Positions 8,307 to 61,924 of a stretch of 64,000 bases of DNA are shown here, piece after piece. Where the stretch lies: NCBI GenBank assembly GCA_012518615.1, contig JAAYRU010000011.1, positions 23,364 through 87,363 on the forward strand. Reading direction: 5' to 3'. Source of the DNA: Christensenellaceae bacterium (GTDB taxonomy: Bacteria; Bacillota; Clostridia; Christensenellales; Aristaeellaceae). Under the pieces are notes generated by a model that was given only the letters and a program-made list of their open reading frames with translations, was not told the DNA's origin and searched no databases. Position 1 is the stretch's first letter. Each line of letters starts with the position of its first letter. The translations under genes and the position numbers were made by a program.

Positions 8307-9473
8307 ATGAACTGGAAAAGGCTAATCGGATTACTATGCGCGATAATGCTGCTGTTGTCTGCCGTCCCGGTTATGGCGGAGGAGCCCATACGTATCGGAT
8401 GGATCGGATCGCTCACCGGTGACTCCGCGGTGTTTGGCGTCAATGAAAGCAGCATGATCAAGATGTTAGTGGAAGAAACTAATGCCGCAGGCGGCATCCT
8501 GGGTCGCCAGGTGGAACTATTTACCTACGATACCAAGGGTGATGCCAACGAAGCTATCAACGCAACTCGGCGCATCATCGCACAAGACAAGGTGTGCGCG
8601 ATTCTGGGACCAAACGCGTCTGGACAGTGCATCGCCATTGCGAGTGTGCTTGAACAAATGAAGGTGCCGGATATTTCCACCGTTGCCACTAATCCGAAGG
8701 TTACCCTAAATTATGATGAAGCGACGGGCAAGTTTACAACCGTCAAGCCCTATAACTTCCGCATCTGTTTTACTGACCCCTATCAGGGGGCCATAGCAGC
8801 GGGGTTCGCATATGACGAGCTTAATGCTACCAAGGCTGCTATTTTCTATGATGTATCGGATGATTATTCTTCTGGACTTACACAATTTTTCGAAGAAATT
8901 TTTACCAACAAGGGCGGCGAGATAGTTGTTAAGGAAGCCTTTAAGAGTGAAGATGTCGAGTTTAAGGCGCAGCTGACCAATATTTTGGCGGCTAATCCCG
9001 ATGTACTCTTCCTGCCGTGCTACTATAAACAAGCGGCACTCATCGCCAAACAGGCGCGTGAGCTGGGCATCGATGCCGTGCTATTGGGTGGCGATGGCTG
9101 GCCCTCTGACCAGTTGTTCGTAATGGCTAAGGAAGCCCTCCAGGGTGCCTATTTTGTCAATCATCTAGATGTTAATGACCCAACCTTTGCTGAACTGAAG
9201 ACAAAGTTTGAAACCAAATTCAACATCCCTCTTGACCTGAACGGCTTCATGGCACATGATGCGTATGTAACGCTGGTTGCTGCCATCGAAAAAGCCGGTT
9301 CGGACGACAGTGAAGCAATTGCCGACGCACTGACGGAAGTGACTGTACAGGGTGTGACTGGTACCATAAAACTATCCAAGGAAGACCATAACCCCATTGG
9401 CAAGGAAGGCTCCATTACCAAGATAGTCGGGGATGGCTATGAGTTTGTCATGAAGTATGGGCTAGGTCAATAG
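8307..9473 (+). CDS. livK: Branched-chain amino acid ABC transporter, substrate-binding protein
   Basis: A 388-residue periplasmic-binding protein type I of the LivK/Leu-Ile-Val-binding family. It begins with a signal peptide (MNWKRLIGLLCAIMLLLSA, cleavage likely after VMA) followed by IRIGWIGSLTGDSAVFG, the classic start of the mature domain, then GPNASGQCIAIASVLEQ in the ligand cleft. The ATG at 8307 is chosen because AAAAGGAGGT lies six bases upstream; a GTG further upstream would put the signal peptide inside the protein. There is no lipobox cysteine at the signal cleavage site, unusual for a Gram-positive binding protein. It heads livKHMGF and captures Leu/Ile/Val or a related ligand; true specificity is unknown. 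Confidence 0.92.
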   Translation: MNWKRLIGLLCAIMLLLSAVPVMAEEPIRIGWIGSLTGDSAVFGVNESSMIKMLVEETNAAGGILGRQVELFTYDTKGDANEAINATRRIIAQDKVCAILGPNASGQCIAIASVLEQMKVPDISTVATNPKVTLNYDEATGKFTTVKPYNFRICFTDPYQGAIAAGFAYDELNATKAAIFYDVSDDYSSGLTQFFEEIFTNKGGEIVVKEAFKSEDVEFKAQLTNILAANPDVLFLPCYYKQAALIAKQARELGIDAVLLGGDGWPSDQLFVMAKEALQGAYFVNHLDVNDPTFAELKTKFETKFNIPLDLNGFMAHDAYVTLVAAIEKAGSDDSEAIADALTEVTVQGVTGTIKLSKEDHNPIGKEGSITKIVGDGYEFVMKYGLGQ

Positions 9474-9485
9474 AACCATAAGTTA

Positions 9486-9518
9486 TATTACGCGGAGGCG
9501 ATCTGCCTCCGCGTAATA
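9486..9518 (+). repeat. Perfect intergenic hairpin between livK and livH
   Basis: TATTACGCGGAGGC (9486-9499) and its exact reverse complement (9505-9518) form a 14-bp stem with a 5-base loop. There is no T-run, so it is more likely an mRNA-stabilising or processing hairpin protecting the livK transcript than a full terminator. A comparable hairpin lies between oppA and oppB. Confidence 0.75.
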
Positions 9519-9620
9519 ATATAGAAACAGATAAAATCGTTTGACCGGCGCATTGTGGGCGGTGTGCGGATTTTGTTACTTTGATTGCGCTATTACCGGG
9601 ATAGAAGGGGGGCGATGGAA

Positions 9621-10499
9621 ATGGAACAATTCTTGCAGCAAATGATCAACGGCTTGTCGCTGGGGAGTGTTTACGCTCTAATGGCGGTAGGCTATTCCCT
9701 TGTTTATTCCATCATGAACTTTTCCAATTTTGCGCATGGAGGCGTTATCATGGTAGGCGCATACATAGGCTACTTTGCCATGACAGCTGCAAACATGCCC
9801 TTCTGGATGGCTTTTTTATTATGTGGCGTGGGTGCGGGTCTTCTGGCGGTATTGCTGGAATTGACTGTCTATACGCCTCTTCGCAACCGCAATGCCCCAT
9901 TTCTCTATTACATTATTTCCGCTATGGGCGCTTCCATTTTCCTTGAAAACTTCGTTATAGCGACCATCGGACCGACTTATAGGACATATCCGCAGGTCTT
10001 TTCGCATGAGCCGTTTCGATTGGGCAGTCTGTCGCTGAGCAGAATAGATCTGATGATTATAGCGGTTGCGGCGATTGGTCTGATTACCTTGGTTATTATC
10101 ATTGATAAAACCAAAATAGGCCTTGGCATTCGGGCGAGTTCTTTTTCTATCAAAGCCAGCCAACTGATGGGAGTCAATGTTAACTTCACCATTTTTTTGG
10201 TATTCCTGCTGGGCGGTATACTGGCGGGTTTCGCCGGTATGCTCTTTGGCATGAAATATACAGTTTATCCCACGATAGGCAATATCACCACAAAGTCGTT
10301 TGTTGCGGCTGTTTTTGGCGGGCTTGGAAGCCTGCCCGGTGCGATTATCGGCAGCGTGCTACTGGGGATTATTGAAGTGCTTGTCAGTGGATACCTTTCT
10401 TCAAATTTCCGTGATTTGATAGCCTTTTTGATTCTCATCAGTATTCTCATCATCAAGCCCACAGGTCTGATGGGCAAATCGAGCGAAGACAAGGCATAG
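9621..10499 (+). CDS. livH: Branched-chain amino acid ABC transporter permease LivH
   Basis: A 292-residue integral membrane protein of the LivH family, starting MEQFLQQMINGLSLGSVYAL. About eight hydrophobic helices are visible. The cytoplasmic coupling segment near GIRASSFSIKASQLMGVN is in its usual place, and GGLGSLPGAIIGS near the end is a family signature. Two ATGs compete at 9615 and 9621; 9621 has the better distance (8 bases) from the AGGGGGG ribosome-binding site and matches family N-termini. It pairs with LivM to form the channel. The gap before livM is 11 bases. Confidence 0.92.
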   Translation: MEQFLQQMINGLSLGSVYALMAVGYSLVYSIMNFSNFAHGGVIMVGAYIGYFAMTAANMPFWMAFLLCGVGAGLLAVLLELTVYTPLRNRNAPFLYYIISAMGASIFLENFVIATIGPTYRTYPQVFSHEPFRLGSLSLSRIDLMIIAVAAIGLITLVIIIDKTKIGLGIRASSFSIKASQLMGVNVNFTIFLVFLLGGILAGFAGMLFGMKYTVYPTIGNITTKSFVAAVFGGLGSLPGAIIGSVLLGIIEVLVSGYLSSNFRDLIAFLILISILIIKPTGLMGKSSEDKA

Positions 10500-54402: not shown

Positions 54403-55632
54403 TTAATCTTCAAAGCTAAATGTAAATATTGCTGTAGGATCATCAAAGTTTTCATTGGGAACCCACATCACTGTCTTATCAGTTAGGTTATATACGGCGC
54501 TGTGAACTGTGCAGTTGTTTTTATCATCATTTGCCCAGTCACGTCTGCCGACGATTTTTAAAATATCCATTGCAGCCTTTTCATCTTTAACAAAGCCATT
54601 GGTTTTGTTAAGTTCTTCATAAATTCTAGCATAGCGGTCATAGCCTTTTTTGTCCTCAACAGGTGAATCGTCATAATAACCTGGTTGAATTACAAAATTT
54701 GTTATAACTTGATAATCACTTTGTGCTTCCATAGTGCCTATATGTGTATCAGCATCATTATAGGTGACTATTAATTCACGCTTAGAACCGTCATTATCGG
54801 TGGCATCAGTGCCAGCTACCCATTCAAGTATAGCGCTTTTCCCGCTATTATCTGCAACCATATAATGGTATGAAGTTTTTGCAGAGTCATGCATATCATA
54901 TGCTGAAGCGATTTCTACCGCCTTTTCCACGCTGTCTGCATAGTCAAGTATAAGCCGCAGGAGAGTGGTTGATGTGAAATCGGGCTTTTCGGTATTTTGG
55001 TCTGTGGCTACAGTTTCTTCACCGCCTTGGTAGGTCATGTAAATACCGCAGCTAACGCCAGCATCATTTATACCATCAAGCGGAGCGTATGTTGCTGCAA
55101 GGCAGGTGATTTTATCCTTCAGGCTTTCCATGTTTTTATCCACATCTATACCAAGAAACTTTAAATCCACACTGGAAATAGAAGCATGGCGACCTTCATT
55201 TGCCTCTGTAAAGACAATACAGGTATTGGTTTTTGAAAGGTCATAGTTGCGGGCGAAAAGAACATCCCCACTTTCTGTTTTTGCAGTAAAAGAAGAGCAG
55301 CCTATTTCAGGGTCGTCAATGTTCATATTGATTAGACCCTTAGTAATGTTTTTTGTAACAAAATCTATAAGTTCCTTGTCGCTTTTAACGCCGCCTTGCC
55401 TTACAAAATCATCCAGATAAAAGCCGCCCTTAACTTTCATAGTATAAACAGCGCCGTCTAAGTGGTCATCGTTTCTATCTTTAATCATTTTTATGCTGGC
55501 GACAGTGGCGATTTCATCTTTCCACAAGAATAATACTGTAGCTATAAGAATCAAAACAACAGATAAAAATATAGCTAAAATTTTACAAAAGATGCTTCTC
55601 TTTCCCGTTTTTTTATTTCTTGCTTGTTTCAT
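54403..55632 (-). CDS. Membrane-anchored linear amide C-N hydrolase (choloylglycine hydrolase/acyltransferase-like Ntn fold)
   Basis: A 409-residue protein with an N-terminal membrane anchor (about 18-37, ILAIFLSVVLILIATVLFLW). The following domain belongs to the Ntn-hydrolase group with bile salt hydrolase, penicillin V acylase and C45-type acyltransferases. The presumed nucleophile is Cys112 in EIGCSSFTAK, which must become N-terminal by cleavage before it; FARNYD (127-132) holds the conserved Arg-Asn. Substrates in the group include conjugated bile acids, penicillin V and N-acyl homoserine lactones. The neighbouring MarR regulator and DegV protein suggest a response to amphipathic acyl compounds (inference). 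Confidence 0.75.
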   Translation of the reverse strand: MKQARNKKTGKRSIFCKILAIFLSVVLILIATVLFLWKDEIATVASIKMIKDRNDDHLDGAVYTMKVKGGFYLDDFVRQGGVKSDKELIDFVTKNITKGLINMNIDDPEIGCSSFTAKTESGDVLFARNYDLSKTNTCIVFTEANEGRHASISSVDLKFLGIDVDKNMESLKDKITCLAATYAPLDGINDAGVSCGIYMTYQGGEETVATDQNTEKPDFTSTTLLRLILDYADSVEKAVEIASAYDMHDSAKTSYHYMVADNSGKSAILEWVAGTDATDNDGSKRELIVTYNDADTHIGTMEAQSDYQVITNFVIQPGYYDDSPVEDKKGYDRYARIYEELNKTNGFVKDEKAAMDILKIVGRRDWANDDKNNCTVHSAVYNLTDKTVMWVPNENFDDPTAIFTFSFED

Positions 55633-55673
55633 AACAAATTCTCCTTTTATTTCAATAACAACTGAAATTTTGC

Positions 55674-56120
55674 TTATTTTCCCCAATTATTAGCTATAGT
55701 ATCTAAACTGTCGCTTATGATAGACAGGCTGCGATAAAATGCAATGCGCTCCTCTTGCGTTATTCCGGTACCTACTTCATCTAAAATTTCATTAATCTTG
55801 TCTATAATTTCTTTTCCGACTTTCCGTCCCTTATCGGTTAAAGAGAAGGGGCTTTTATAGCGCTTTGCATGTTGCGAGTCGCATACTATGTAGCAATTCT
55901 TTTCCAGATAGTCAAGAGAGCGGGAGATTGCCGCCTTATCTTCTTCGCAATGTTCGCACAATTCCGTAGCGGTTAGTCCGTCATTCTTGTAAAGATAGTA
56001 TAGGCAAGAAATATGTGCGCTTTTAAGGTTAAAAGCGGATATTTCCTGGCTTTTTATCTTGCGAATATTACGGCTAATACGGTTTATTAACACAGTAAAA
56101 GCCTCGAAACGTTCTTGCAT
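55674..56120 (-). CDS. MarR family transcriptional regulator
   Basis: A 148-residue winged helix-turn-helix protein. The recognition region is LTATELCEHCEEDKAAISRSLDYLEKN (split as LTATELCEHCEEDKAAISRS and LDYLEKN), followed by the wing (YKSPFSLTDKGRKVGKEI). It heads a reverse-strand unit with the amide hydrolase and DegV genes. Two near-identical palindromes flank its own -10 box, so it is probably a self-repressing regulator released by a small ligand. GGAGTTACT precedes the ATG. Confidence 0.88.
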   Translation of the reverse strand: MQERFEAFTVLINRISRNIRKIKSQEISAFNLKSAHISCLYYLYKNDGLTATELCEHCEEDKAAISRSLDYLEKNCYIVCDSQHAKRYKSPFSLTDKGRKVGKEIIDKINEILDEVGTGITQEERIAFYRSLSIISDSLDTIANNWGK

Positions 56121-56988: not shown

Positions 56989-58587
56989 TCACTCCACACG
57001 CATAGCCTGCCCGCTTGAGTTAAGAACTACAGTGTTTAGCTTACTATTTTCTAGTACAGGGATGCCGTTTATAAGTACATGCTTTATTCCGAATGCTTTT
57101 TCTTGGTATGTTTCGGCTGTAAGAATCTCATTTTCATCGAATACGGTTATGTCCGCAAATGCACCGGATTTTAACACGCCTCTATCTTTAAGTGCAAATC
57201 TGCGGGCAGTGGCACCTGTCATCTTCATTATTGTATTAGGTATGGTATCGCCTTTGCCTTGTAGAGCTTGTTTTAGGAACCTTGGGAAGCCATCATATAT
57301 AGCGGAATTTTGCACACCATTTGGCTCCCACCAGGCATCTGTCATAAAAAGTACTCGTGGATGTTTTGCTAGTTCATCTATGATTTCTGGCGTGCTGTAG
57401 GGTCCCATATTAACGCGCCCTTTAAAATCACTCATCTCGCACAAACGCAGGTAAGCCTCAACTTGGCTAACGCTCATTTCTTTGGCAATAGCGGCAACAG
57501 TTTTACCTTCATATTGTTCAAAACCTTCACCTAGATAGGCAATCTGAATATCATTAAAATCAAAACCGAGCAGTAGTATACTCGCTCTAGCAAGCAGGGT
57601 AAAGCGCAAACGGTTAAAGAACTTGCGCTTCTTTTTTGCGCTCATAGCCTGATACCAAGGTGGCATAACTACTGTAATTACACTTGTGCCATAAGTTTGA
57701 TGGTAGATATCAAAGCCTATGTCTATGCCTTCACTTGCCATCTGGTCAAGTATGCGTATTACTTCATCCTTGTAAGCGAAGCTGCGTCGTCCTACAAAAA
57801 TAGCGTGTGAGTATTGCAGCTTAAGCCTGCTACCTTTAGCAAGGTCGTAAAGTTCATCTAAGGCACGCAATAAATGTGGACGCCCCAGTAGCTCTTTATA
57901 AGCCATACTAACCTTAGATTCTGCTCTTGGGTGTACAGTAAGGGGGCGGTCATAGCGCTCGCAAAGTTTGGCAATCTCTTGCAATTCTTCTTGTGGAGCG
58001 TAAAGACCAGGGCTATACATAAGTCCAAGGCTAATGCCACATGCGCCCTGTTTTAATCCGTCTTCAAGTAGATTCATCATACGACTCATTTCAGAATCTG
58101 TAAGAGGACGATTGGTACCGCCCGAAACGCTTGCGCGTGCGGTATTATGTCCCATAAGCAAAGCCAGATTGCAGGGTGTTTTACGGTGTGTTTTTTCAAA
58201 AAACTGCTCAACGCTACCATAGGGCTTAAATGACTCAGGCAATGTAAAAGTACCGCCTCCAACCTCAGATAGGTAAGGGCTATCAGGTTCAAAACCCGCG
58301 GCACTAGCACCACAGTTGCCGGTTATAAAGCCTGTTACGCCTTGGTATATAAAGGGTTCAAAGGGAGTTACAGTGTCATCCCATAGGGCGCACCAGTCAT
58401 TGTGAGAATGGGCGTCTATAAAGCCGGGCGATAGGCTAAGGCCTTTCATATCCCATACTTTGGTTCCTTCGCGGGGCAGATCTTTGCCTATGGCAAGTAT
58501 ACGCTCTCCCTTTATAAGTACATCTTGGCGTACAGGTTCACTACCAAGACCATCATATGTAAGTGCGCCAGTAAGTAGTATTTTCAT
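56989..58587 (-). CDS. D-aminoacylase / N-acyl-D-amino-acid deacylase-type amidohydrolase
   Basis: A 532-residue metal-dependent amidohydrolase. The metal-binding HxH is His60-His62 in GFIDAHSHND, and the metal-bridging Cys is Cys92 in GNCGAS, a hallmark of D-aminoacylases. MGHNTARASV, GISLGLMYSPGLYAP, LTVHPRAE and YSHAIFVG supply the other conserved groups; the final Asp is probably in LFMTDAWWEPNG. Members deacylate N-acyl-D-amino acids or dihydropyrimidine-like amides. It starts 12 bases after the stop of the ligase-ACP-oxoamine synthase gene, so the two form an operon. It may trim or recycle an N-acylated product of that enzyme (inference). The ATG at 58587 has AAGGAG upstream. Confidence 0.85.
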   Translation of the reverse strand: MKILLTGALTYDGLGSEPVRQDVLIKGERILAIGKDLPREGTKVWDMKGLSLSPGFIDAHSHNDWCALWDDTVTPFEPFIYQGVTGFITGNCGASAAGFEPDSPYLSEVGGGTFTLPESFKPYGSVEQFFEKTHRKTPCNLALLMGHNTARASVSGGTNRPLTDSEMSRMMNLLEDGLKQGACGISLGLMYSPGLYAPQEELQEIAKLCERYDRPLTVHPRAESKVSMAYKELLGRPHLLRALDELYDLAKGSRLKLQYSHAIFVGRRSFAYKDEVIRILDQMASEGIDIGFDIYHQTYGTSVITVVMPPWYQAMSAKKKRKFFNRLRFTLLARASILLLGFDFNDIQIAYLGEGFEQYEGKTVAAIAKEMSVSQVEAYLRLCEMSDFKGRVNMGPYSTPEIIDELAKHPRVLFMTDAWWEPNGVQNSAIYDGFPRFLKQALQGKGDTIPNTIMKMTGATARRFALKDRGVLKSGAFADITVFDENEILTAETYQEKAFGIKHVLINGIPVLENSKLNTVVLNSSGQAMRVE

Positions 58588-58599
58588 CAATATTCTCCT

Positions 58600-61500
58600 T
58601 TAAGCTGGAAGTTCAATGCCTGATTCTTTGGCAGCATCCATCAAGCAATCAAGTGCCTTTATTATTTGCTCTTCACGGTGTTCGCTAATCACGCAGAAAC
58701 GAAGCCTTGCCTTGCCTTTGGGCACGGCAGGGAACACTGCGGGCGGTACGAATATGCCTTTATGGCGAAGTATGTTTGATAATAGGAATGCGTTCTCGTC
58801 ACTTCCCACAAGAATCGGTATAATAGCAGTTTCTCCAGCCAAGCAGGTATTAAGCCCACGCTTGTGTGCTTCTTCCACAAATATCTTAATATTTCGCTGT
58901 AGAGATTGAATTATAGACTTATCGCTGCGCAAGAGACGTATACCTGCCAATGCACCTGCTGCAAGCGGTGGTGAAATACCAACTGAAAAAACAAAGCCGG
59001 GCAGGTTATAGCGCAGATAGGTTATAAGATTTTTGGAACCTGCAAGGTAGCCTCCACAGGTACCTAGCCCTTTTGACAGGGTACCCATCTTTATGTCTAT
59101 ATCTCCGGGCTTAAGACCAAAGTATTCGTCTACACCGCCGCCGGTTTCACCTATTACACAGGCAGAATGTGCCTCATCAACCAGCAGGAAGCAGCCGTAT
59201 TCCTTTTTAAGTTTAACAAATGCGGGTACATTAGCGATATCTCCATCCATTGAATAAGCGCCTTCTATTATTATCAGTACTTTTTCAAATTTGTTTCGCA
59301 AGGATTTAAGCATACTTTCAAGGGCATCCGGGTCATCATGGGGGAAGGGTTTGGCGGTAGCTCCGCTTAGTTTGCAGCCTTGGTTGATGGAATTATGGGC
59401 TAGTGCGTCATATAGTATTAGGTCGTTTTTGCCGCAGAAGTTACCTACGAAGGTAACATTTGTAGCATGACCACTCACCAGTACAAGTGCATCCTCAGTT
59501 CTTTTCCATTCTGCGATTTCCTTTTCCAATTCCTGATAGAGGCTTTTTTCGCCGGCAAGAAGCCTTGAACCGGAGGCAGATGTGCCGTATTTATCAATAG
59601 CAGCTTTGGCTGCTTTGTTCACTTCCGGACGACCAGACATACTAACATAATTATAAGAGCCAAAGTTTAGGGTTTCTACCCCGTCCATAAGAGAAACATC
59701 TTTGAGAGTACTGTCATGGCGTATGAAATAGGGGTTTTCTTGCCCCGCGCCAATTAGTGCCTGCTCACGCAAAGCAAATGCTTTATACTCTGGGCTTTCC
59801 TCAAACCGAGTGATGGGGGCAATTTCTTCACTAAGGGCGACCTCTGGCTTGCTGCTTTCGCCCTTAAGGTGTGCGCTTATAATATCTGTAAGAGCGTTTA
59901 CGCTCACACATTGGTTGTATTCCTCAGTTGGTATAAGCACTGAGAACATATCCTCAACTTTAAGAGAAACTGATAACACTTGCAGGCTATCTCCGCCTAA
60001 ATCATTAATAAAATGAGAATCGTCTAGTATTTGTTCCATAGGGACTTCAAGCACTTGTGCATATATGCTGCGAACCTTGCTCTTAATTTCTTCCCTGCTT
60101 AGGTCTTTGGAACTTGTTACTTCGCTTTCGCTGACTATGGGCTGTTCTAAGTTTTTTAGGCTCATATCGCGATAGGGAATACGGCGGTTTTCAATAGCGT
60201 CCTTAAGCGCCAAGCGTTTAACTTTTATGCCGCTTGCGGTTGCAAAACGCTCAGGGGTTACGAGTACGCGAGTTACCTTTTTCATAACCGGCAAACGGCC
60301 GTTAAGGCGGCTTATCTGCTGCATAAGTTGGGTTAAAAAGTCGCTGTCATGGTAGTATTCACCAACATTCAGCACAAGCGTAATGTCTTCGTAAGCAAGG
60401 CTGGTTTTTCTGCGGTGCTTAGCTCGCTTAGCGTCGGTGCTGCGGATACCCAAAACGCTGAATTGTTCCACGCCCTCAAGCAGACCGAAATAATCCTCAA
60501 TTTCATCAGGATAAATATTTTCACCGGATTCGTTTATAATTACATCCTTGCTGCGACCTTCAACATACATACGCATGCCTCTTTCAAGGCGAACAATATC
60601 TCCTGTACGGTACCAACCGAGTTCATCTGTATCAGGGGCAGAAAGCTTACCGTTTTTTAGCCTTCCTGTATGTATACTACTCCCGCGGATTAGCATTTCT
60701 CCGGTGTTGGCTTGTTTACCGCTTGGAATTACTTTATATTCAACACTTGAAAAAGGTCTGCCAACGGAACCAGATGTGCGGGTGTGCAGATTCATGCCAG
60801 TTTCAACGCTTGTGATGGCGGTTTCCGTCATACCAAAGCCGCAGACTGTATAGTAGCCAAGGGCTGCAATATTACGCATATGCTCGCGCGGTGTGTGGCT
60901 GCCGCCCAGTATTACGCAGTTTACATCCGGTCCAAGTAGTTGCTCTACCACAGACTTGAAAAGCACATTCCTAGCAAAATCCATGCCAAATCTGGGAGCT
61001 ATACTTTGAATGGCAAGGGAAATGCCTTTAAGTGTTTTAAAGGCAAAGCGTTTTATTGGCTTTTCCTTAGCCACTTTTTTATTAAGACCTATTGAAAGGG
61101 AATTAGCAAGCAGGGGTACTGCACAAAGGAAATTCACCTTAAAGCGGCGCATAGCGCTTAAAATGGTTTCAGGCGCGCGGTCTTTTATATATACGCTTTC
61201 ATAGCCAACAAAATTACACCACATCATGCAAACCATAAAGCCAAATATATGGTGGAAGGGTAAAAATGCTAGGTTGCGCTGCATATGAGAATTTACAATG
61301 CGTGGATTGGCTTTATGTAGTAGATCTGAGTTAAGCACCTGTTCGCATAAGGCTTTTTGCTCATATATATATATACGGCTGGTTTCAGTGGTGCCTGATG
61401 TGCACAACGCTACCATATTAGCCCAAGGCACATTAGCATCAGGAGTAGCCTCTGGTGCGCTAAAAACATCTTCCGCCTTTATTTGAACAATATCCAAAGG

Positions 61501-61896
61501 AAGTTGCCGTTTATTTTTGCTTATTAGACCCACAGCCCCGCCTTGCTTTAACAGGTAGGTAGTCATTGTATCGTTTAGATTGGCATCAATAAGCAAGGGT
61601 TGATAACCAGCCTGAACAAGTGCCCAGAACACAGCGTACCATTCCTTGCAGGTATCAAGCTGTAAGGCCACAAATTTGCCCTGTCTTTCTTGACCCAGTA
61701 TCTCAGTAAGGTAAACAGACCATGACTTTACCATACTATCATATTGCTGGAAAGTGATGGTCTTTTCTTCATCGTTCTCTAAATAATGGGCGGCAATGCG
61801 ATGGGGGTTTTCATTTATTAGTGCGTATATGTTTTTTAGCGTCATGTCCGCCCGCAGCGCTTGGCAGCGGGCGGCTATATCGGTGTACAATTCCAT
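58600..61896 (-). CDS. AMP-ligase / acyl carrier protein / alpha-oxoamine synthase fusion
   Basis: A 1098-residue megaenzyme. Residues about 15-560 are an acyl-AMP ligase: LCTSGTTE (164-171), GFGMTETA (353-360), YRTGD (429-433) and GRSKDVIINESGENIYP. Residues about 600-680 are a carrier protein, with the phosphopantetheine Ser637 in DLGGDSLQ. Residues about 700-1095 are a PLP alpha-oxoamine synthase related to KBL, BioF and serine palmitoyltransferase: SGSRLLAGEKSLY, VDEAHSAC (906-913) and PLP Lys942 in GTLSKGLGTCGGYLAG. The expected reaction is acid activation, loading on the carrier, then decarboxylative condensation with an amino acid to a 3-keto-amine, as in sphingoid base or prodiginine-type synthesis. 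Acyl chain and amino acid are unknown. The ligase A10 region reads SGIKVKR instead of SGKxxR. AGGAGG precedes the ATG at 61896. Confidence 0.88.
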   Translation of the reverse strand: MELYTDIAARCQALRADMTLKNIYALINENPHRIAAHYLENDEEKTITFQQYDSMVKSWSVYLTEILGQERQGKFVALQLDTCKEWYAVFWALVQAGYQPLLIDANLNDTMTTYLLKQGGAVGLISKNKRQLPLDIVQIKAEDVFSAPEATPDANVPWANMVALCTSGTTETSRIYIYEQKALCEQVLNSDLLHKANPRIVNSHMQRNLAFLPFHHIFGFMVCMMWCNFVGYESVYIKDRAPETILSAMRRFKVNFLCAVPLLANSLSIGLNKKVAKEKPIKRFAFKTLKGISLAIQSIAPRFGMDFARNVLFKSVVEQLLGPDVNCVILGGSHTPREHMRNIAALGYYTVCGFGMTETAITSVETGMNLHTRTSGSVGRPFSSVEYKVIPSGKQANTGEMLIRGSSIHTGRLKNGKLSAPDTDELGWYRTGDIVRLERGMRMYVEGRSKDVIINESGENIYPDEIEDYFGLLEGVEQFSVLGIRSTDAKRAKHRRKTSLAYEDITLVLNVGEYYHDSDFLTQLMQQISRLNGRLPVMKKVTRVLVTPERFATASGIKVKRLALKDAIENRRIPYRDMSLKNLEQPIVSESEVTSSKDLSREEIKSKVRSIYAQVLEVPMEQILDDSHFINDLGGDSLQVLSVSLKVEDMFSVLIPTEEYNQCVSVNALTDIISAHLKGESSKPEVALSEEIAPITRFEESPEYKAFALREQALIGAGQENPYFIRHDSTLKDVSLMDGVETLNFGSYNYVSMSGRPEVNKAAKAAIDKYGTSASGSRLLAGEKSLYQELEKEIAEWKRTEDALVLVSGHATNVTFVGNFCGKNDLILYDALAHNSINQGCKLSGATAKPFPHDDPDALESMLKSLRNKFEKVLIIIEGAYSMDGDIANVPAFVKLKKEYGCFLLVDEAHSACVIGETGGGVDEYFGLKPGDIDIKMGTLSKGLGTCGGYLAGSKNLITYLRYNLPGFVFSVGISPPLAAGALAGIRLLRSDKSIIQSLQRNIKIFVEEAHKRGLNTCLAGETAIIPILVGSDENAFLLSNILRHKGIFVPPAVFPAVPKGKARLRFCVISEHREEQIIKALDCLMDAAKESGIELPA

Positions 61897-61924
61897 ATTG
61901 TATAACCTCCTAATTCTCATTTGG

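Follow-up and report, generated by a model that had tools for sequence, protein, structure and literature searches.

A fused ligase, carrier and oxoamine synthase protein of Clostridia, linked to a KdsR-like reductase, is a probable maker of sphingoid bases

In a stretch of 64,000 nucleotides from a Christensenellaceae bacterium (assembly GCA_012518615.1, contig JAAYRU010000011.1, positions 23,364 to 87,363; the whole stretch is called the window below), we studied a gene on the minus strand (58600-61896) that encodes an acyl-AMP ligase, an acyl carrier protein (ACP) and a pyridoxal phosphate (PLP)-dependent alpha-oxoamine synthase (AOS) in one chain, here called the megaenzyme. This is probably a self-loading protein of the serine palmitoyltransferase (SPT) type, which charges its own carrier with a free fatty acid and condenses the acyl group, likely with L-serine, to a 3-keto sphingoid base for reduction by a KdsR-like short-chain dehydrogenase/reductase (SDR). 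The ligase would adenylate the free acid, presumably a long-chain one, with ATP and pass the acyl group in cis to the phosphopantetheine on S637 of the ACP. The AOS domain would then join the carrier-bound acyl group to serine with release of CO2, and the KdsR-like SDR, encoded elsewhere in the window genome, would reduce the ketone to an amino alcohol that may be used as a membrane or cell-envelope lipid. The megaenzyme has all three domains with conserved catalytic residues, its AOS domain falls into an ACP- and polyketide-linked group, and its gene is genetically tied to that of a KdsR-like SDR.

The open reading frame spans 58600-61920 and has 1106 open codons. The ATG at 61896 is equivalent to the start of the close homologue P0002 and is preceded by a Shine-Dalgarno-like AGGAGG on the same strand (61906-61911), 9 nt 5′ of it. 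Therefore 61896, the upper coordinate given in a preliminary description of this DNA, is likely the true start, which results in a protein of 1098 residues (TAA stop included in the coordinates). The ligase region covers residues 1-580 (60157-61896; PF00501 AMP-binding at 28-409, E = 1.4e-37), the ACP domain with its DLGGDS motif residues 607-672 (59881-60078; PF00550 PP-binding, E = 1.2e-9) and the AOS domain residues 693-1098 (58603-59820; PF00155 at 742-1083, E = 2.4e-43). This domain order, PF00501, PF00550 and PF00155, is the fused A-CP-AOS layout (AMP-binding, carrier protein, AOS). In total, 893 proteins matched the megaenzyme family at E ≤ 1e-3 among 7996 scored candidates. From 120 of these, the 118 proteins longer than 1050 residues were aligned with the window protein and nine proteins from the loci described below, giving 128 rows. 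The A10-motif lysine K558 of the ligase (GIKVKR; 60223-60225), the predicted phosphopantetheine serine S637 (59986-59988) and the PLP-binding lysine K942 (GTLSKG; 59071-59073) are unchanged in all 128. The same holds for the stacking histidine H834, for D907 and H910 (DxxH) and for the substrate arginine R1066, which together with K942 were aligned to SPT rows. The megaenzyme is thus a conserved gene family, and a chance arrangement is excluded. The preliminary description had read one gene with ligase, DLGGDS carrier and PLP-dependent AOS with their key residues, which Pfam and the alignment confirm. Its worry that an altered A10 motif might make the ligase inactive is not upheld, as GIKVKR is a trait of the whole family and its lysine is invariant.

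To place the AOS domain, a tree was calculated from 54 domains (61 minus seven near-duplicate rows). The megaenzyme family forms one clade of 23 rows (support 100/100), nested in a 33-row group (100/100) of ACP- or polyketide-linked AOS. The other members are an AOS from Planktothrix that is fused to a polyketide synthase (PKS), AOS of Streptomyces, Nocardia and Acidisoma, and six more. The role of a chain-supplying PKS would fall to the ligase and ACP within the megaenzyme itself, the long open reading frames that neighbour its relatives having been scanned in part. Approximately unbiased (AU) tests rejected the grouping of the family with the SPT clade (p-AU 1.2e-5), the BioF clade (0.0014) and the KBL clade (3.6e-5). 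Moreover, the domain scores below all curated cut-offs: 338 against 426 bits for BioF, 289, 259 and 227 against 640, 500 and 670 bits for SPT, and 285 against 460 bits for KBL, with a further 240 against 493 bits. It is therefore neither a canonical SPT nor a member of BioF or KBL. A separate KBL (638 bits) is encoded in the window genome, beside a gene whose start resembles threonine dehydrogenase by reading, and no biotin or threonine gene is among the 18 genes scanned in the window. A position inside plain BioF or KBL with such genes nearby, which the preliminary description had held to speak against its idea, was thus not seen.

The second line of evidence comes from the gene neighbourhoods. 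When the neighbours of fused or stand-alone AOS genes were clustered, SDRs of 250-330 residues were the commonest, found in 16 loci compared to five for the next cluster; one of the 16 (L057) holds a different SDR. A KdsR-like SDR, of the 3-ketosphinganine reductase type, adjoins the megaenzyme gene in 23 of the 32 usable loci (SDR match of at least 90 bits; 15 of 17 loci on genome contigs and 8 of 15 in further genomes). This count is made without L037, L050 and L052, which are cut at contig ends, and without L053-L057, in which no fused ligase was detected; G005 is counted once as L040, and in G027 ligase and AOS lie on different contigs. Outside the count, the SDR is adjacent in L053 and L056 and not in the stand-alone AOS loci L054, L055, L057, L121, L125 and L129. 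It usually lies just upstream of the megaenzyme gene, downstream in Caloramator and divergently in Treponema, and of nine junctions inspected by eye, eight have 17-30 nt between the two genes and one has about none. Among the loci with the SDR are those of the isolates Caloramator quimbayensis (L047) and Clostridium sp. N3C (L046) and of a Treponema metagenome-assembled genome (MAG; L049). Four SDRs were scanned, and each has NF049977 (3-ketodihydrosphingosine reductase) as its first or second NCBIfam family by score: the SDR of Caloramator reaches 349 bits, that of the window genome 221, and those of two MAGs 193 and 180. The cut-off of this family, 400 bits, was passed in none of the 14 control genomes. 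The search for a ketosphinganine-reductase homologue that the preliminary description had suggested did find one in the window genome, sub-cut-off and unlinked to the megaenzyme. It lies on another contig (G000:C11:101927-102727) and was invisible to that description for this reason; in the SDR tree it is nested among the megaenzyme-linked SDRs (95/92). As a separate observation, the gene immediately after the megaenzyme in L034 (6654-7292), L128 (12968-13603), L036 and L045 encodes a protein of 205-227 residues that contains the motif CGPCTG. Two of these proteins were scanned and had no Pfam family at E ≤ 1, and a match is present in 8 of 60 related genomes, the window genome not being among them.

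These 60 genomes, which include that of the window (G000), were also compared for both kinds of synthase, using presence lists transcribed by hand with a cut at 150 bits (all values were at least 159 or at most 129). The megaenzyme or its AOS occurs in 22 and an SPT-like gene in 12, and no genome has both (Fisher p = 0.0023). Within the family the numbers are 21 and 4 of 36 genomes, again none shared (p = 0.023). Seven of the 22 lack the full fusion: the AOS stands alone in G008, G014 and G031 and is incomplete or split in G023, G026, G027 and G040. The KdsR-like SDR is found in 20 of the 22 megaenzyme/AOS genomes and in all 12 SPT-like genomes, that is, in 32 of 34 genomes with either synthase compared to 11 of 26 with neither (Fisher p = 1.8e-5); the two misses are incomplete genomes (80% and 51%). 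Against SPT-like references, all 12 SPT-like genes score 470-776 bits; the two that were scanned reach 551 and 540 bits against a cut-off of 640. Six of them are in the AOS tree, where they stand beside Bacteroidetes SPT (the row of G025, L029, is not in the tree). Six of the 12 adjoin a KdsR-like SDR in the same gene order as in the megaenzyme loci, so the two synthases look interchangeable. In addition, the SDR of L053, which lies beside an AOS of the megaenzyme family, groups with the SPT-linked SDRs (100/99). The pattern looks like a swapping of the first enzyme ahead of one reductase. The 12 SPT-like genes, all of the same taxonomic order (L155-L166, in G059, G038, G048, G025, G043, G006, G021, G045, G044, G055, G051 and G010), may in themselves be a hint of sphingolipid synthesis in Clostridia.

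Parts of the proposed route are known from other bacteria. In the excerpt of PMC12134224, PfSgaB of Pseudomonas fluorescens MYb115, an AOS served by a PKS, is described to bind L-serine and to form 3-ketodihydrosphinganines from acyl-CoA surrogates, with an SPT activity that is near-exclusive for L-serine when compared with alanine and glycine; a KDSR-like SDR is encoded in its cluster. Both PfSgaAB(C) and the megaenzyme combine a carrier-bound chain that feeds an AOS with a KDSR-type SDR; in the Proteobacterial system, however, an iterative PKS supplies the acyl chain and the AOS is a separate protein (PMC12134224). A Pseudomonas plasmid locus in the 33-row group (PKS, an AOS 45% identical, and an SDR about 5 kb on) stands in for PfSgaB by its gene types. 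PfSgaB, which is not itself among the tree rows and whose sequence was not aligned, appears to belong to the PKS/capsule-type AOS group of the megaenzyme. Kinship with PKS-linked AOS such as PfSgaB makes L-serine the likely amino acid. In Caulobacter, AasR, AcpR and SPT act in series on free fatty acid and serine, and the SPT prefers acyl-AcpR over acyl-CoA (PMC9386255, in excerpt); the megaenzyme would do in one chain what these three do separately. The Caulobacter-type system differs in that its AOS is in the SPT clade and its reductase is of the epimerase type (L154), not KdsR. Moreover, the megaenzyme ligase is barely alignable to the one AasR-like ligase compared, which lies beside a Rhodobacteria-type SPT (73 residues, 37% identity).

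The A-CP-AOS layout is already known. A table published in 2013 lists it for Microscilla and Blastopirellula, with no pathway, cluster or product in the excerpted part of PMC3870968, in which the AOS domain of a Synechococcus AMP-binding protein was modelled on SPT. Those Microscilla and Blastopirellula proteins, compared by description only, are like the megaenzyme in that a single chain unites an AOS domain with an AMP-binding and a carrier domain (PMC3870968). A Planctomycete ACP-AOS (L065) falls outside the megaenzyme clade in our tree. BioWF likewise has a ligase fused to an AOS and makes an aminoketone from a free acid, but it is a di-domain protein of the biotin pathway (PMC9544090, in excerpt), and the BioF clade was rejected for the megaenzyme. 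KdsR activity is known from Bacteroides BT_0972, which according to the excerpt of PMC9278070 is not clustered with SPT. The linked SDRs resemble it in having NF049977 as best or second-best family, at only 180-349 bits.

If alanine, glycine or cysteate took the place of serine in the proposed condensation, the result would be a deoxysphingoid base or a capnine-like lipid, which we regard as unlikely. Serine rests on kinship, and the best AOS profile is that of BioF, an alanine enzyme; on the other hand, the related PfSgaB has its strong preference for L-serine (PMC12134224), and the BioF and KBL clades were rejected by the AU tests. The residue before the PLP lysine, position 941, also bears on this point. 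It is serine in all 128 family rows and in the five SPT rows, but G or A in the ALAS row, in the BioF row from E. coli and in two rows of KBL. In SPT, a serine at this place has been suggested to contact the hydroxyl group of the substrate (PMC3870968, in excerpt). However, it is also present in one BioF row and one BioF/Kbl-family row and is thus not diagnostic.

The product could also be a sphingoid-like lipid anchor for a capsule-type surface glycan instead of a ceramide-type membrane lipid. The further six AOS of the 33-row group give some reason to consider this. In Shinella, Caballeronia, Pseudomonas and Paraburkholderia a type I PKS is annotated upstream of the AOS, and in Sinorhizobium its place is taken by a PKS-sized gene (7.5 kb) whose annotation reads SDR family. 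Capsule or polysaccharide genes lie near the AOS in these five of the six; the Methylobacterium record is unannotated. In addition, no ceramide synthase was identified in our data, no search having been aimed at one. We nevertheless find a glycan anchor improbable: among the neighbours that recur beside the megaenzyme, a minority of which were scanned, we recognised no capsule cluster, and the SDRs of the capsule loci are of another kind. An SDR follows the AOS in Sinorhizobium and Shinella (it lies some 5 kb away in Pseudomonas), and as an orthologue of the linked SDR it was rejected, with about 33% identity, other best families and a position outside the KdsR-like rows. It is analogous and, as judged from sequence, apparently not of the same lineage. 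The Sinorhizobium gene set is presumably rkpAGH, a name that is absent from the record. That 3.7-Mb Sinorhizobium record (L132, CP090106.1) is labelled pSymB and carries secD together with the capsule-type AOS locus; from its size and the presence of secD it looks like a chromosome, and the label may be wrong.

The ligase domain was folded separately, since the matches listed for a model of the whole protein were AOS chains. Its AlphaFold model (pLDDT 87.9) has the ANL fold, with MenE, 4-coumarate:CoA ligase and an acyl-ACP synthetase among the matches listed; structures of the fatty acyl-AMP ligase (FAAL) type are not among these, which carries no weight as evidence. As the listed matches are mostly aryl or short-acyl ligases, the substrate might be a short-chain or aryl acid and the product a secreted aminoketone or a pyrrole or pyrazine precursor in the style of PigH or CqsA, with no lipid involved. 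PigH is a characterised fused AOS named in the excerpt of PMC3870968, and genes that resemble ABC permeases by reading recur near five loci. However, the KdsR-like SDR is by far the commonest neighbour (16 loci against five) and is paired in the same order with SPT-like genes, which makes such a secreted product quite improbable. Ligase-ACP proteins of about 670-700 residues that have no AOS domain were seen in Bacilli/Erysipelotrichaceae MAGs (L060-L064, L069, L072 and L074, near 9090-10001). They are 27-32% identical to the N-terminal part of the megaenzyme (PF00501 and PF00550 in the scan of L061), and their genes lie in a conserved housekeeping neighbourhood with gene starts resembling fmt and rpsT by reading.

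Several points weigh against sphingoid-base synthesis by the megaenzyme. The SDRs score under the NF049977 cut-off, with 220.6 against 400 bits in the window genome, although it is the best NCBIfam family of that SDR, and there the gene is unlinked to the megaenzyme. Of the 26 genomes that lack both synthases, 11 also have the SDR, among them G003 of the same genus; the SDR may therefore have other work. For the AOS domain, the BioF profile gives a better score (338 bits) than the best SPT profile (289 bits), all below cut-off; likewise, the BioF profile ranks above the SPT profiles for the sister AOS of the capsule type and of Streptomyces, Acidisoma and Nocardia. Where SPT rows have (S/T)NxY, the megaenzyme AOS has SYNY. 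The closest ligase structures among the matches listed are MenE and 4-coumarate, chlorobenzoyl and feruloyl CoA ligases, none of them fatty-acid-specific. Long BioF and ALAS branches add uncertainty to the AOS tree, and the SPT grouping of the AU test was chosen after the first tree had been seen. The related genomes are not independent of each other, and their lists are hand-made. Finally, neither a ceramide synthase nor a head-group enzyme was identified, neither having been systematically sought.

Gut bacterial sphingolipids are attributed mainly to Bacteroides and Prevotella, with the presence of SPT as marker (PMC12134224 and PMC12816596, in excerpt). The producers named in the excerpt of the 2025 paper are Bacteroidetes, Chlorobi and some Proteobacteria, with a wider potential in Gram-negative and some Actinobacterial species (PMC12134224). 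Among the literature matches listed, from a search mostly outside subscription papers, there was no report of the megaenzyme family or of its sphingoid-base synthesis in Clostridia. We see an even chance that Christensenellales, scattered other Clostridia and a Treponema are unrecognised sphingolipid producers, which use either a Bacteroidetes-like SPT or a fused ligase-ACP-SPT, never both in the 60 genomes and each with a KdsR-like reductase, the fused enzyme replacing SPT and using free fatty acids instead of acyl-CoA. If so, a single-chain SPT substitute fed by free acids in Clostridia would escape the SPT marker and widen the list of possible producers, and the megaenzyme would offer a compact way to make 3-keto sphingoid bases with one protein as catalyst. 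The reading can be tested in Caloramator quimbayensis and Clostridium sp. N3C, two isolates that have the operon.

Downstream of the megaenzyme gene in the window lies a D-aminoacylase-like amidohydrolase gene (Amidohydro_3; 56989-58590, minus strand). Its start, ATG 58587 or TTG 58590, is 9-12 nt past the megaenzyme stop and has its own ribosome site (AGGAG); the two genes are likely co-transcribed. The preliminary description had seen in the megaenzyme one chain with the parts to go from a free acid to a 3-keto-amine, which is supported, and had joined it with this neighbour to a two-gene pathway, which is not. Despite the tight spacing, such a pathway is very improbable: among the loci examined the two genes adjoin in the window only, G005, the nearest relative (megaenzyme 96% identical), has no amidohydrolase match at E ≤ 1e-20, and the recurring partner is the KdsR-like SDR. 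The amidohydrolase was therefore rejected as an obligate partner. Its eight closer orthologues (42-100% identity) are all in megaenzyme/AOS genomes (8 of 60; hypergeometric p = 1.2e-4, or 0.007 within the family only), yet no more than 8 of these 22 genomes have one. An amidohydrolase with 45% identity lies about 5 kb from the AOS-SDR pair of L056, whose AOS stands alone. In G001, which belongs to the same genus as the window genome, an amidohydrolase comes after the SDR and is broken into two frames (L115:3389-6013; 65-81% identical by stretch to that of the window), with an RtcB gene like that of the window some kilobases away. This arrangement is perhaps the remnant of an ancestral SDR-megaenzyme-amidohydrolase locus. 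Going by sequence, the amidohydrolase may have an accessory role at most.

Further downstream on the same strand, the window holds a gene for an Ntn-hydrolase of the AAT/choloylglycine (linear amide) family (54403-55686; 79.7 against 85 bits for the C45 family). A MarR regulator gene (55674-56120, minus strand) lies upstream of it.

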